Positions 11,294 through 18,955 of a stretch of 40,620 bases of DNA are shown one piece after another. The notes beneath the pieces were generated by a model, which was not told the DNA's origin, did not search any database, and was given only the letters and a program-made list of their open reading frames with translations. How positions within the stretch are numbered: position 1 is the first letter of the stretch; every line of letters starts with the position of its first letter. The stretch is from positions 1 to 40,620 of the forward strand of contig JAIROT010000173.1 of NCBI GenBank assembly GCA_031257385.1, read 5' to 3'. Source of the stretch: Treponema sp. Lineage in GTDB: Bacteria; Spirochaetota; Spirochaetia; Treponematales; Breznakiellaceae. The translations under genes were made by a program, and so were the position numbers.

Positions 11294-13969
11294 TTAGTTC
11301 CCGTCCCTTTCAATCTCCGCCTGGGCAATGCCCAGCAGGGCGATGGGTACCGAGTAGGGAGAACATGACACATAATTGAGACCGGCATCCATGCAGAAGC
11401 GTATATTGGCCGGATTGGCCCCGTGCTCGCCGCAGAGACCGCAGACCAGGTCCGGCCGGGTAAGCCGTCCACGCTCGGTCGCTATGCCGATAAGCTCCTT
11501 GACCCTCGGATCCAGCGTACTGAAAGGATTACCCTGGATAAGGTCAAAAAGAGTATAGTCCGGCATGAAGGCGGTAAAATCATCACGGGAAATACCAAGA
11601 GTGGTCTGGGTCAGATCATTGGTACCGAAACTGAAGAAACGGCCGTACTTGGCGATTTCCCCCGCGCCCAGGGCTGCGGCGGGCAGTTCTATCATCGTAC
11701 CGATCTGATACTCCAGCTCTTTGGCCTTTTTCTCTTTTCGCAGATTCTCTTCAATATCCACAATGCCGATGTAATTTGAACCCTCGATCTTTTTGCCGTA
11801 GGCAATAAGTTTGAGTTCCGAGGCGTTCATCACAATGGGAACCATGATTTCAGGCCGGGCGTCGATTTTTTCGGCGTTGAGCTTGTACGCGGCCTCAAAA
11901 ATGGCCTTGATCTGCATGGCGTATATCTCCGGGTAGGATACGGCGATACGGCAGCCACGGTGTCCCAGCATGGGGTTAAACTCGTGAAGCGCCTCGATCC
12001 GGGCAAGAATTGCGGCCCTGGAGGGCTTGGTACTTTTTCCCTTGGCGACATGGGCGATATAGCCGGCCATTTCTTCATCGTTATGGGGCATAAACTCATG
12101 CAGCGGGGAATCCAGCAGGCGGATGGTCACTCCTTTGCCCGCCATCACTTTCATAATACTGTAGAAATCGTCCCGCTGCATAACCTGGAGTTTGTCGAGG
12201 GCTTTCTTCCGTTCCCCGGGATCGTCGGAGAGCAGCATTTCCCGGAATACGTTGATCCGCTCCGCCTTAAAGAACATGTGCTCGGTACGGCAAAGGCCCA
12301 CCCCGTCCGCGCCGAAACTCAGCGCCAGAGCGGCGTCCCGCGGAGTGTCGGCGTTGCAGCGCACATGGAACTTTTTAAGGAAAGTCTTGGTCAGGGTGAT
12401 AAAGTCCATCAGCCCCGATTCTTTGGGATCAGGCTCAATAAGTTCGGCGCATCCCTCGTATACCGTGGATTCCCCGTAAAAGGGAACATTGATGGTGATG
12501 TAATCGCCTTCAGAAAAACTGAAATCGCCCAGGGAGGCCTTGCTGCCCTTGATCTTCAGATCAGGCGCAACCAGGGAGACTTTTCCGTATTGGCGGGCTA
12601 CAACCGAGGCATGAGCCGAATAGCCGCCTTCAGCGGTGAGAACGCCGGTACTTACCTCGATTGCCTTAACATCCCCGGCAAAGGAGGAGATCAGCACCAG
12701 GATAAAACGGTCGTCCTCGCCTTTCTGATGGGCGCGTTTCTCCGCATCAAGCAGCGCGCTGGTACTAAAGTACACCCTGCCGATGGCCGCTCCCGGCGCT
12801 CCGGCGATGCCGCCTTTCCAGGATTTCAGGGCCTTCGCGCTGGGCGGGTTGATCACCGGATGCAGCATTTCATTCAGTCTGAGGGGATCGATGGCTTTTA
12901 TCACATCGGCGTTGCCGATGATTTTCCGTTTTGCCAGGTCAAGGAGGAGCTTGATGTCGGCCTGGGTTGATTTCTGATCCACCGGACGCTGCTCAATGAG
13001 CCAGAGCTTGCCGTTCTCAACGGTAAAACGGATATAGCGAATTTCCTTGAATTTGTCCTCAAGGGTCCACGCGATTTTTTCAAGCTCTTTAAGGTGAGCA
13101 GCATCGATCTTGCCGATGTCCTGCCCCGACGCGCCAAGCTGGTTGAACTTGCCCCGGAAGAAAGCTCCCTGGAGTTTCTTCTCGCCGGTGATAACATTGC
13201 GGCTGAAATAATCGCCTGAACAGGAGTCTTTGCCGTAATTGCCGTACACCATGGGCTGGATAAGGAGCGCCGTATCACGGTCGTTCTGATCGTCCATCTG
13301 GAGCATTTTGGATATTTCGCTCAAAGTGATAAGAATCTGGCTTTCGGCATCATCAAAAAAGCCCTCGGGGAAATATTTAGCGTATTCGTCCATGTATCCT
13401 GCGGCGCTTTTATCAATCGGAACAGGCTCCTGTTTCTCGTGCAGTTCGTTGGAAGGTCCGCTGATTCCCAGCATCAGGTCCAGGCGCTTCAACTCGGAAG
13501 CGATTTTTTCCTGCTCTTTGGGTTTGGCTTCAAGCTCCCTGATCCGCTCTTCAATTTTGAGCATACCCCGGACAAGAAAAAGCACTTCGTGAGTGGCGAA
13601 GTCTTCACCCACCCATTTGGCAAAGCCCTCGATGGCGGGCTTTACAAGACCGAAGTTGTGCAGAGTCGGGTATGTGGTAATGGCCAGGTTCGAGGATATG
13701 ACCACCTTGAGGAGCATAGGATTCTTCGTGTCCCCGTAAATTTTGCCAATTATGCTGCCGCATTTCTCCAAAAGGGTGTTAATGTCCTTTTTTATGGCTT
13801 TTGTGTCTATCTCTGAGGCGATATATGTGTCCAGAATAAATCCGGGAAGAATAGGAAACCCAAGCCCGGCGAATTCATTGGCCAACCGTCCCCGGATACC
13901 CAAGCGCTCGGGCGCGACTTTTTGGGGAATGACGTCTTTCTTGCTAAAAAAATATATTCTGTTGTCCAT
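11294..13969 (-). CDS. ppdK: Pyruvate,phosphate dikinase-like protein with an apparently degenerate nucleotide-binding domain
   Basis: Conserved central and C-terminal motifs: EGGYSAHASVVARQYGK, GVGLCRTEHMFF, IRLLDSPLHEF, NPMLGHRGCRIAVSYPEIY, GTMIELP, FFSFGTNDLTQ, CGLCGEHGANP, GLNYVSCSPYSVPIA. The N-terminal ATP-grasp region is divergent. Confidence 0.85.
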   Translation of the reverse strand: MDNRIYFFSKKDVIPQKVAPERLGIRGRLANEFAGLGFPILPGFILDTYIASEIDTKAIKKDINTLLEKCGSIIGKIYGDTKNPMLLKVVISSNLAITTYPTLHNFGLVKPAIEGFAKWVGEDFATHEVLFLVRGMLKIEERIRELEAKPKEQEKIASELKRLDLMLGISGPSNELHEKQEPVPIDKSAAGYMDEYAKYFPEGFFDDAESQILITLSEISKMLQMDDQNDRDTALLIQPMVYGNYGKDSCSGDYFSRNVITGEKKLQGAFFRGKFNQLGASGQDIGKIDAAHLKELEKIAWTLEDKFKEIRYIRFTVENGKLWLIEQRPVDQKSTQADIKLLLDLAKRKIIGNADVIKAIDPLRLNEMLHPVINPPSAKALKSWKGGIAGAPGAAIGRVYFSTSALLDAEKRAHQKGEDDRFILVLISSFAGDVKAIEVSTGVLTAEGGYSAHASVVARQYGKVSLVAPDLKIKGSKASLGDFSFSEGDYITINVPFYGESTVYEGCAELIEPDPKESGLMDFITLTKTFLKKFHVRCNADTPRDAALALSFGADGVGLCRTEHMFFKAERINVFREMLLSDDPGERKKALDKLQVMQRDDFYSIMKVMAGKGVTIRLLDSPLHEFMPHNDEEMAGYIAHVAKGKSTKPSRAAILARIEALHEFNPMLGHRGCRIAVSYPEIYAMQIKAIFEAAYKLNAEKIDARPEIMVPIVMNASELKLIAYGKKIEGSNYIGIVDIEENLRKEKKAKELEYQIGTMIELPAAALGAGEIAKYGRFFSFGTNDLTQTTLGISRDDFTAFMPDYTLFDLIQGNPFSTLDPRVKELIGIATERGRLTRPDLVCGLCGEHGANPANIRFCMDAGLNYVSCSPYSVPIALLGIAQAEIERDGN

Positions 13970-13985: not shown

Positions 13986-15017
13986 TTAGAAGAGCCTCAA
14001 CACGTTGTTTACCGGTCCGTGAAGGAAGGCTTCAAACTGGCTGCTGGCCCCCTGGGACAGATAGCGCTGCAATTTTGCCACATCCTGGATATTGTCGCCC
14101 GCCACGGCAAACTCAATGGCGCTGCCGTGCTTGACTTTCCCCCATTTGAAAAGAGAATTGATATCGAGGATCCGCTCACCTTCATAGTAGATGTACACTT
14201 CCAGCGTGGAGTGCTTGGCCTTGTAACTGGCTACAATCCGCTTCCACGCTTCCACGTTTCCGTTGTGGAAAAGTTCGTTCTGTACCACCACCGCATAACG
14301 GGGGGTCATCTTTGCCGACACAGACGAAGAGGTTGCGGTTATTACCGGCGCGGCGACGCGCTGCACCTGGGGCGCTGAAGGGGCATTTTTTGCCTTGGGG
14401 GCGGTTTTGGCCGCCGCCTTTTTCCCGGGCGTCTTCGCGGAAACGGCTGTTTTTCCGTCATTCCCGCCGGGCGCCGAAACCTTGCGTACACTGAAACTCC
14501 CCTTCAGCAGGGCCGGCGGGGTTTTTACCCTGGCTCCGGCGAAAAGATCCAGGGCCAGTTCCGCCGCGCTTCGGCAGGTTTCATCGGCGGGCTTACCCTG
14601 TTTTCCGGCGTACACTACCAAAAGTTCCCGTTTGCGCAGTCCTCCGAAACCGGACAACTCTCCGGCCACTTTGGGATTCGCAATCAAAAGCCCAAGTTCG
14701 GGATGGTGATAGGCGGCGATAAGATCGACGGCTTTCCATTTGGCGAATTCCGCCGCCAGTTTTGCCGGATCATCAACCACCGTGGCAAGATTGGAAGAAG
14801 CCGCCTCATATCCCAGCTTGTCAATCAGAATCATCCGCAACAGCAGCCCTATCCGCTCACCGGAAAGTTCATTGTCTCCCAGTTCATACAAAATATCCGC
14901 CAGATTATCCGACCCCGCATCTCCGGAAATGCTGATGGTTTTCTGTATCTGCCGCACCACGGCGTTAAAGCCCGCCCGTGTAGAAAGCACTTCCAGATTG
15001 ATCAAATTTTTACCCAT
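13986..15017 (-). CDS. Uncharacterised protein: unknown N-terminal domain, K/A/P-rich linker, C-terminal HPr-like domain
   Basis: ATG at 15017 (MGKNLINLEV); linker KTPGKKAAAKTAPKAKNAPSAPQ; C-terminal PRYAVVVQNELFHNGNVEAWKRIVASYKAKHSTLEVYIYYEGERILDINSLFKWGKVKHGSAIEFAVAGDNIQDVAKLQRYL resembles HPr by eye. Confidence 0.7.
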   Translation of the reverse strand: MGKNLINLEVLSTRAGFNAVVRQIQKTISISGDAGSDNLADILYELGDNELSGERIGLLLRMILIDKLGYEAASSNLATVVDDPAKLAAEFAKWKAVDLIAAYHHPELGLLIANPKVAGELSGFGGLRKRELLVVYAGKQGKPADETCRSAAELALDLFAGARVKTPPALLKGSFSVRKVSAPGGNDGKTAVSAKTPGKKAAAKTAPKAKNAPSAPQVQRVAAPVITATSSSVSAKMTPRYAVVVQNELFHNGNVEAWKRIVASYKAKHSTLEVYIYYEGERILDINSLFKWGKVKHGSAIEFAVAGDNIQDVAKLQRYLSQGASSQFEAFLHGPVNNVLRLF

Positions 15018-15040
15018 AAAAATATTACCCCTTTTTAAGT

Positions 15041-15104
15041 AAAAAGCCCCCAACATCCCAGAGCGGTTGGCATAAAAACCGCGCTCTCGTATCAGGGGCC
15101 TTTT
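15041..15104 (-). terminator. Terminator/attenuator structure between cfpA and the HPr-like gene
   Basis: Minus strand GGCCCC...AGAGCGCGGTT...AACCGCTCT...GGGGGCTTTTT: nested stems followed by T5. Confidence 0.7.
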
Positions 15105-15152
15105 AATTAACGGTATCCCGCCTCGGCGCAGGGCCGGACGGAATATTTTACA

Positions 15153-17622: not shown

Positions 17623-17874
17623 TCAATATATCTCTCCGTCCGCTGTAAGCAATGAACGAAAAACTCTTGTGTAACTTAAATCGTTTTTCTTTAAGAGTGT
17701 CATAACTGTACCGACATCAGTTTCATCTATATTTTGAATCTCGGCGGCGTACTCGCAAGCAACGCCGAGGGAACGCGGCACAGGTATGACATGACAGGAC
17801 AGACCCGCCGTCTTCATAATTTTTTCGCACGAGAATACATCGGCAAAAGCCGCAAATGTAAAAAGTAATTTCAC
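17623..17874 (-). CDS. DUF3343 family small protein (putative Se/S carrier-like)
   Basis: GTG start at 17874 (VKLLFTFAAFADVFSCEKIMKTAGLSCHVIPVPRSLGVACEYAAEI...), overlapping the frame-corrected yedE stop (GTGA). The longer 151-aa ORF in the track is out-of-frame read-through. Confidence 0.7.
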   Translation of the reverse strand: MKLLFTFAAFADVFSCEKIMKTAGLSCHVIPVPRSLGVACEYAAEIQNIDETDVGTVMTLLKKNDLSYTRVFRSLLTADGEIY

Positions 17875-18955
17875 GCGGCAGCTTTTTTCGCTTTTACGGG
17901 TGTAGAAAGAACCGCAATTAGAGTTATCACGGCAAAACCTGCCGCAACGGCGATTTTTCCGTTGGCAGGAACTCCCTGCGGAGAGCCGCGATGCCAAAAT
18001 TGTGCGCTGTGGCTCCCGCAAGCAGAAACGCGAGTATACAGATACCGGCATCGCTGTTCCCTTCTCCTGACATAACAAGCTGCCTTAGCGGACATCCGCC
18101 GATTAAAACAGAACCGTAACCGACAAGGGCCATTCCCAGAAAATTCCAGAGCGCGTCTGTGTGGGCTATGGGCTGCCCTTCAAAACCGGGCTTAAAGTTA
18201 CCCAAAATAATGTTGCCGGCAAGGGCGACAATGAAAATTGAAACATAGCCCCAAAACACGACGGGGTTTTTTATCAAAAAAATATTGCGTATGCTTCCCG
18301 ACATACAAAGACCGCTTTTTTGCACAAGCGCTCCAATGATAAAAGCCGCGGCAATCGAAAGCAAGACCGGCGCCCGCATCGAACCTACGCCTTCCGCACT
18401 GAATTTGATGAAAGAGGGCCGCACAAACAGAAAAACGAGGAGCACGACGGCAATAAGCGGCATAACGAGTCCGTTTGCCGGTGTCTGCTTTTCAGCCTTC
18501 CCCAAATTAAAACCTTTGCGCAGAAAAACGCTCCCAATACCGATACCCGCGGCAAAGCCCGCAAGTCCCACCAGTGCGTTAAGGTCGCCGCCGCCGAGCC
18601 GCAGCATAAGCCTCAGCGGGCAGCCCAGAAAAACCAGGGCGCCAATCATTACGAAAAAAGCGATGGCAAAACGGGCAAGCGGCGCAGACCCTCCCTGTCC
18701 CTTCCACTCGCCCTTGAACAGCGCGAGTACAAACGCCCCAAGCAAGAATCCCGGTATCTCCGGCCGTATATATTGCACCGCCGCAGCACTATCCAAAGCA
18801 AGCGCACCCACCGTATCACGGATAAAACAAGCCACACAAATACCCATGTTTTTAGGATTGCCGAATTTTGCCAGCAGCACGGCCAGTACCCCTATGACAG
18901 CGCCTGTCGCCACAAGCCAAGCATCGATTTTCGTATTTTTTTGTGAAATACTCAT
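17871..18955 (-). pseudogene. yedE: YedE-family putative selenium/sulfur transporter, frameshifted near the C-terminus
   Basis: MSISQKNTKIDAWLVATGAVIGVLAVLLAKFGNPKNMGICVACFIRDTVGA...GGCPLRQLVMSGEGNSDAG...AHNFGIAA, then a frame change near 17981-17990. Family-like tail SPQGVPANGKIAVAAGFAVITLIAVLSTPVKAKKAAA* is in the adjacent frame. Confidence 0.8.

Follow-up and report, generated by a model that had tools for sequence, protein, structure and literature searches.

The gene that lies between cfpA and a gene related to pyruvate phosphate dikinase (PPDK) in the Treponema sp. contig analysed here is predicted to encode, at the C-terminus of its product, a domain with the fold of HPr, and this protein (X) and its PPDK-like neighbour probably form a phosphorelay driven by PEP that would resemble Enzyme I/HPr while being built from other parts and tied to the cytoplasmic filament. 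If true, the spirochaete filament would gain a metabolic input and a PEP-driven relay would run parallel to the PTS. An enzyme long labelled a glycolytic kinase appears, judging by its residues, to have lost its ATP site in many spirochaetes including the syphilis agent, and doubt is cast on the accepted view that TP0746 converts PEP to pyruvate and forms ATP in Treponema pallidum. A broader proposition, plausible even if we place it slightly short of probable, is that a second PEP phosphotransfer system, put together independently of the first, operates across the Spirochaetota and couples the PEP level to the filament, and so to division or shape, with TP0746 serving as a relay rather than as a glycolytic ATP producer.

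Within the window, i.e. the whole stretch of 40,620 nucleotides, the three genes follow each other on the minus strand in the order cfpA, X, PPDK-like (Table 1). The reading frame of X, the C-terminal letters quoted for it and the gap of 16 nt between its end and the ATG of the PPDK-like gene at 13969 had been given correctly in an earlier sequence-only reading. A longer alternative frame starting at 15056 is also present, and the start was set at 15017 because the homologues agree with the latter. The product of cfpA scores 1202.6 bits against NF040882 (curated cut-off 500) and is thus a member of that family. The 128-nt spacer between cfpA and X folds with a minimum free energy (MFE) of -57.1 kcal/mol (z = -4.7), a value equalled by none of 200 shuffles, and its hairpin is a probable intrinsic terminator or attenuator that would set the ratio of cfpA to X expression; there may therefore be only partial readthrough from cfpA into X and the PPDK-like gene. 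Farther out, on the 5' side of cfpA, the region 17623-18955 has an ORF that resembles, by eye, a YedE-type membrane transporter, followed by a short ORF that looks, again by eye, like a redox or sulfur carrier.

Table 1. Features of the cfpA, X and PPDK-like locus, in positions of the window
Feature	Position	Strand	Description or basis
cfpA, cytoplasmic filament protein A, 666 aa	15153..17153	minus	NF040882 match
Hairpin flanked by A and T runs, cfpA/X spacer	15039..15105	minus	MFE
Gene X, 343 aa	13986..15017	minus	ATG start; without family annotation; orthologue of TP0747 / TDE0843
N-terminal domain of X, aa 1-172	14502..15017	minus	Predicted helices, then E-H-E-E-H-E-H (E, strand; H, helix); family not assigned
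K/A/P-rich linker of X, aa 173-235	14313..14501	minus	pLDDT, low conservation
C-terminal HPr-fold domain of X (predicted), aa 236-343	13989..14312	minus	AlphaFold2 models, Foldseek, conservation
His251 codon, candidate phosphoacceptor	14265..14267	minus	Invariant motif N-E-L-F-H-N-G-N-V-E-A-W-K
PPDK-like gene, 891 aa	11294..13969	minus	Degenerate ATP-grasp, intact His domain and PEP barrel; orthologue of TP0746 / TDE0844
His453 codon of PPDK-like protein	12611..12613	minus	Aligned with C. symbiosum PPDK His455

How closely do the three genes keep together? Within the order, 75 of 151 genomes carry a homologue of X, and across the phylum a profile (E <= 0.1) detects one in 138 of 395. For the joint count one match at 0.03 was set aside, which leaves 137 genomes with X, next to 135 with the PPDK-like protein and 138 with CfpA, the last figure omitting one genome (G037) that matched below the curated cut-off. 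All three occur together in 129 of the 395 genomes and none of them in 253, with pairwise phi coefficients of 0.94-0.96; mismatches are few, and several of them fall on incomplete assemblies or at contig ends. The gene trio is thus conserved, as had been suggested for treponemes, and extends well beyond them. In 177 X loci the PPDK-like gene lies directly downstream in 172 and cfpA directly upstream in 168; these loci were picked for carrying X, overlap in part and come mostly from close relatives, so that the phylum sample is taken as the unbiased test of linkage. A few lineages have the PPDK-like gene kilobases or farther from X.

No Pfam or NCBIfam match was obtained for X, whether alone or across 59 homologues, and its architecture is known from prediction. 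The AlphaFold2 model, built with those 59 homologues, shows two confident domains separated by a disordered linker rich in Lys, Ala and Pro. This linker, already proposed from the letters, is present at about residues 173-235, has pLDDT values below 50 at 181-204 and 211-233 and shares only 5-25% identity with distant homologues; it is probably disordered. The two domains differ in conservation, 38 of 108 columns being at least 98% identical in the C-terminal one (139 homologues) and 6 of 172 in the N-terminal one, where N18, W94, Y103, P106, N114 and P115 are invariant or nearly so. The final E-H-E-E-H-E-H order of the N-terminal domain resembles that of the C-terminal domain, and the former may in turn be a degenerate relative of HPr-like or ferredoxin-like domains; a profile comparison for a second HPr-like domain at this end was not significant.

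HPr is built in the order β-α-β-β-α-β-α, and its His15 is the residue just before the first helix. In the C-terminal domain of X, AlphaFold2 predicts strand 241-244, helix 252-268, strands 273-278 and 281-283, helix 288-291, strand 300-307 and helix 313-323, i.e. β1-αA-β2-β3-αB-β4-αC, so that both the order and the spacing of the elements are those of HPr, and His251, directly ahead of helix A, falls at the His15 position as had been claimed. The order was unchanged when the domain was folded alone (110 residues, 63 sequences; pLDDT 86.7, pTM 0.83). A Foldseek search of 350,542 PDB chains with this domain alone returned HPr or Crh chains as the top 14 matches and as 35 of the first 39, with probabilities up to 1.00 and target-normalised TM-scores up to 0.66; none fell below E = 0.001, the lowest E being 0.02. 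The whole of X also matched HPr, in hits given without their query range, which the N-terminal domain might equally have produced. Predicted fold, element order and spacing, and a His directly before helix A are shared with HPr (PF00381) and its relatives Crh and NPr, as is the hydrophobic Leu-Phe that opens helix B, where S-L-F-K is also found in E. coli HPr. X differs from HPr in its longer helix A, in its fusion to the linker and N-terminal domain and in a C-terminal extension (G-A-S..F-E..L-x-L-F).

At the level of sequence, by contrast, the resemblance is not significant. BLASTP of X against E. coli HPr gave no match, phmmer and hmmsearch against PDB sequences gave no link to HPr, and in hhalign the C-terminal domain scored against an HPr profile at a level reached by 12% of unrelated windows (6 of 50). 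Run over the window's own genome, PF00381 found three true HPr proteins, X not among them. The HPr motif H-[AT]-R-[PA] (HARP/HTRP) is absent, H-N-G-N standing in its place in 139 of 139 homologues, which agrees with the earlier remark that ARP is replaced by NGN. Since HPr Arg17 and Pro18 are thus missing, any phosphotransfer chemistry would require other groups. Hence the claim that the last ~100 residues match HPr stands for the predicted fold and the Foldseek ranking and fails for the sequence match, and it is the comparison of folds that supports the resemblance, the sequence match taken by itself not being significant. X appears to resemble HPr beyond chance in fold, and its C-terminal domain is best described as HPr-fold by prediction rather than as a member of the HPr family, a label withheld because the sequence methods fail and the motif is H-N-G-N. 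His251 is kept in all 139 aligned homologues across spirochaetes, together with N247, F250, N252, G253, N254, V255, E256, W258 and K259, and NELFHNGNVEAWK is nearly invariant.

Could X simply belong to the ordinary PTS, as an HPr-like regulator that is phosphorylated by the canonical Enzyme I or by HPr kinase instead of by its neighbour? Genes for canonical Enzyme I and HPr do reside in the same genome, and residue 288, which lies approximately at the place of HPr Ser46 (the register being uncertain by 1-2 residues), is Ser in 89 of the 139 homologues. However, this residue is Ala in 32 and Thr in 18, i.e. not Ser in 50 of 139, X co-occurs with the PPDK-like protein and CfpA and has no PTS genes adjoining it, and HPr is distributed far more widely than X, 59 of the 61 genomes sampled from the phylum having it. 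A role in the ordinary PTS is therefore very improbable, and with canonical HPr and Enzyme I at hand X should be dispensable for that system.

The second half of the argument concerns the PPDK-like neighbour, described beforehand as competent for PEP and His chemistry and degenerate in its ATP-grasp domain, a description that the residues uphold. The alignment comprised 108 PPDK-like proteins encoded next to X, 11 further PPDKs of the same set of genomes and the PPDK of C. symbiosum (1dik). In 108 of 108 neighbours K22 is replaced by Arg, R92 by Val or Ile, E323 by Arg, Lys, Leu or Gly, and Q335 by Glu, Asp or Asn; D321 is replaced in the window protein and most others, and R337 is retained in 93. 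By contrast, the phosphorylated His and the PEP site are intact: H455, R561, R617, N768, D769 and C831 are retained in all 108 and E745 in 107, the remaining one being an unread residue (X in the sequence). All 11 of the other PPDKs keep R92, D321, E323, Q335 and R337 (K22 lay outside the DNA compared). Identity to C. symbiosum PPDK tells the same story, at 28% for the ATP-grasp domain of the PPDK-like protein versus 58% for the canonical paralogue, and 50% versus 54% for the PEP barrel. In plant PPDK, Arg95 and Glu324 are directly involved in ATP binding (PMC5507339), and in VadK the Arg106Lys change renders the ATP site non-functional and inactivates the enzyme (PMC13400623); local motifs suggest that Arg95 and Glu324 correspond to R92 and E323, and Arg106 of VadK to R92. 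PPDK-like genes located away from X carry the same lesions, and the 117 sequences, adjacent and non-adjacent, form one clade (FastTree, MRCA support 0.71). Against TIGR01828 the window protein scores 633 bits, below the family cut-off of 843, and against TIGR01417 (PTS_I_fam) 102 bits, below the cut-off of 342 and best in the PEP barrel.

Another contig of the same genome encodes a further PPDK, whose ATP site is intact, and for this organism the PPDK-like protein is therefore rejected as simply the glycolytic PPDK. A rival explanation is that the PPDK-like protein has remained an active PPDK, or works with a different phosphate donor or acceptor through a remodelled ATP-grasp site, with X as its inhibitor, activator or localisation factor, and that it would then still provide the last glycolytic ATP step of T. 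pallidum. In the genome taken to be that of this species (G014 = L113; single contig of 1,139,633 bases) the trio lies at 810746-816533. The positions of TP0746 and TP0748 in PMC10013896 and PMC3373638 fall within the trio genes, which is the ground for the assignment, and the correspondence of cfpA, X and ppdK to TP0748-TP0746 given in the earlier reading is confirmed. A single HPr and a single Enzyme I are encoded there alongside the PPDK-like protein, the last being the sole PPDK-family protein besides Enzyme I, and pyruvate kinase, present in the other ten genomes tested, was not detected. These points favour a working PPDK, as does the literature, according to which TP0746 most likely yields ATP from PEP, AMP and PPi (PMC10013896). 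On the other hand, the ATP-binding residues R92 and E323 are gone in every one of the 108 neighbours, and the window's own genome and most tested relatives have a separate canonical PPDK and/or pyruvate kinase, so that we regard this explanation as quite unlikely. The lost residues speak against an ATP-forming TP0746, without proving the point.

Published data from Treponema denticola bear on the association with the filament. TDE0842 (cfpA), TDE0843 (X) and TDE0844 (PPDK-like) were repressed together when the organism was co-incubated with other oral species (PMC3914990), and among the major proteins of its envelope fraction band 1 was TDE0844 and band 3 CfpA, the presence of CfpA being explained by the authors as membrane anchoring (PMC3931704). 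A soluble glycolytic enzyme would be unexpected in the envelope, a hint that the PPDK-like protein may accompany the filament, even though co-fractionation does not prove contact. CfpA is a ribbon protein whose loss leads to filamentation and condensed chromosomes (PMC3398590). No paper connecting CfpA, a TP0746-type PPDK and HPr was found in the literature searched, which has most subscription journals outside it, and the papers searched on the CfpA filament mention no phosphorelay. The same co-fractionation, along with the tight linkage of X to cfpA and the loss from X of the HPr motif residues that follow the His, would also suit a structural module, in which X would be a bridge or anchor of the filament with the HPr-like fold as a binding surface, the PPDK-like protein a recruited or moonlighting scaffold, and His251 a residue for packing or binding that never carries phosphate. 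Yet full conservation of the PEP site and phospho-His would be needless for a mere scaffold, and His251 sits exactly at the phosphoacceptor position of HPr; a purely structural role is therefore unlikely, if the least unlikely of the alternatives.

The relay that we favour adds to the computed fold, residues and linkage, and to the published co-regulation and co-fractionation, two phosphotransfer steps, a docking on the ATP-grasp remnant and an output to CfpA that we infer. PEP would phosphorylate His453 on the swivelling His domain of the PPDK-like protein, for which the residues are in place, and the latter, its ATP/AMP-PPi chemistry lost, would pass the phosphate on to His251 of X. X would thus take the place that ATP has in a PPDK, and the former ATP-grasp domain may perhaps have been reused as its docking site. 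With its N-terminal domain on a flexible linker, X might then report the PEP supply to the CfpA filament or act on it, as the linkage suggests. Several points argue against such a relay. The PPDK-like protein is without the helical domain through which Enzyme I binds HPr, and the missing sequence homology to HPr, the Foldseek E-values, the H-N-G-N motif, the distance of the PPDK-like gene from X in a few lineages and the canonical HPr and Enzyme I of the same genome count in the same direction. Of the interpretation originally drawn from the letters, all computable parts (fold, His, neighbour and trio) have held and the sequence match to HPr has not.

Several known systems offer parts of this scheme. 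With Enzyme I (PtsI) the PPDK-like protein shares the PEP barrel, the phospho-His domain and the proposed chemistry from PEP via His to the His of an HPr fold, whereas its domain order and ancestry, with an ATP-grasp N-terminus and no Enzyme I helical domain, are those of PPDK, and its HPr-like partner is a different one. With PPDK (TIGR01828) it shares the three-domain architecture and all PEP-site and phospho-His residues, while it has lost ATP-site residues and forms its own clade. VadK of M. tuberculosis (PMC13400623) is likewise a PPDK-derived protein turned phospho-His regulator and is its mirror image, having lost the PEP domain and kept ATP, whereas the PPDK-like protein has lost the ATP site and kept PEP. 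In rifampin phosphotransferase and HpeHI (PMC4844700, PMC12167813) a swivelling His domain also shuttles phosphate between sites, in HpeHI split over two proteins, but there, unlike in the system proposed for the window, the phosphate comes from ATP and goes to a small molecule.

A few loci depart from the usual arrangement. In two genomes (G017 and G032; loci L121 and L122) cfpA is located elsewhere and not beside X, and the G017 copy (C1:2249885-2251645) contains an in-frame TAA; another genome (G045) has two full copies of cfpA. In one family (f50; loci L248, L249, L250, L252, L253 and L255) genes are inserted between X and the PPDK-like gene, encoding a protein of ~241 residues (5 of 6 loci), a protein of 660-880 residues without a Pfam match (Pfam run on L252) and, by Pfam on the same locus, a von Willebrand A protein and a GAF-GGDEF protein; it is possible that these are further parts of the system.
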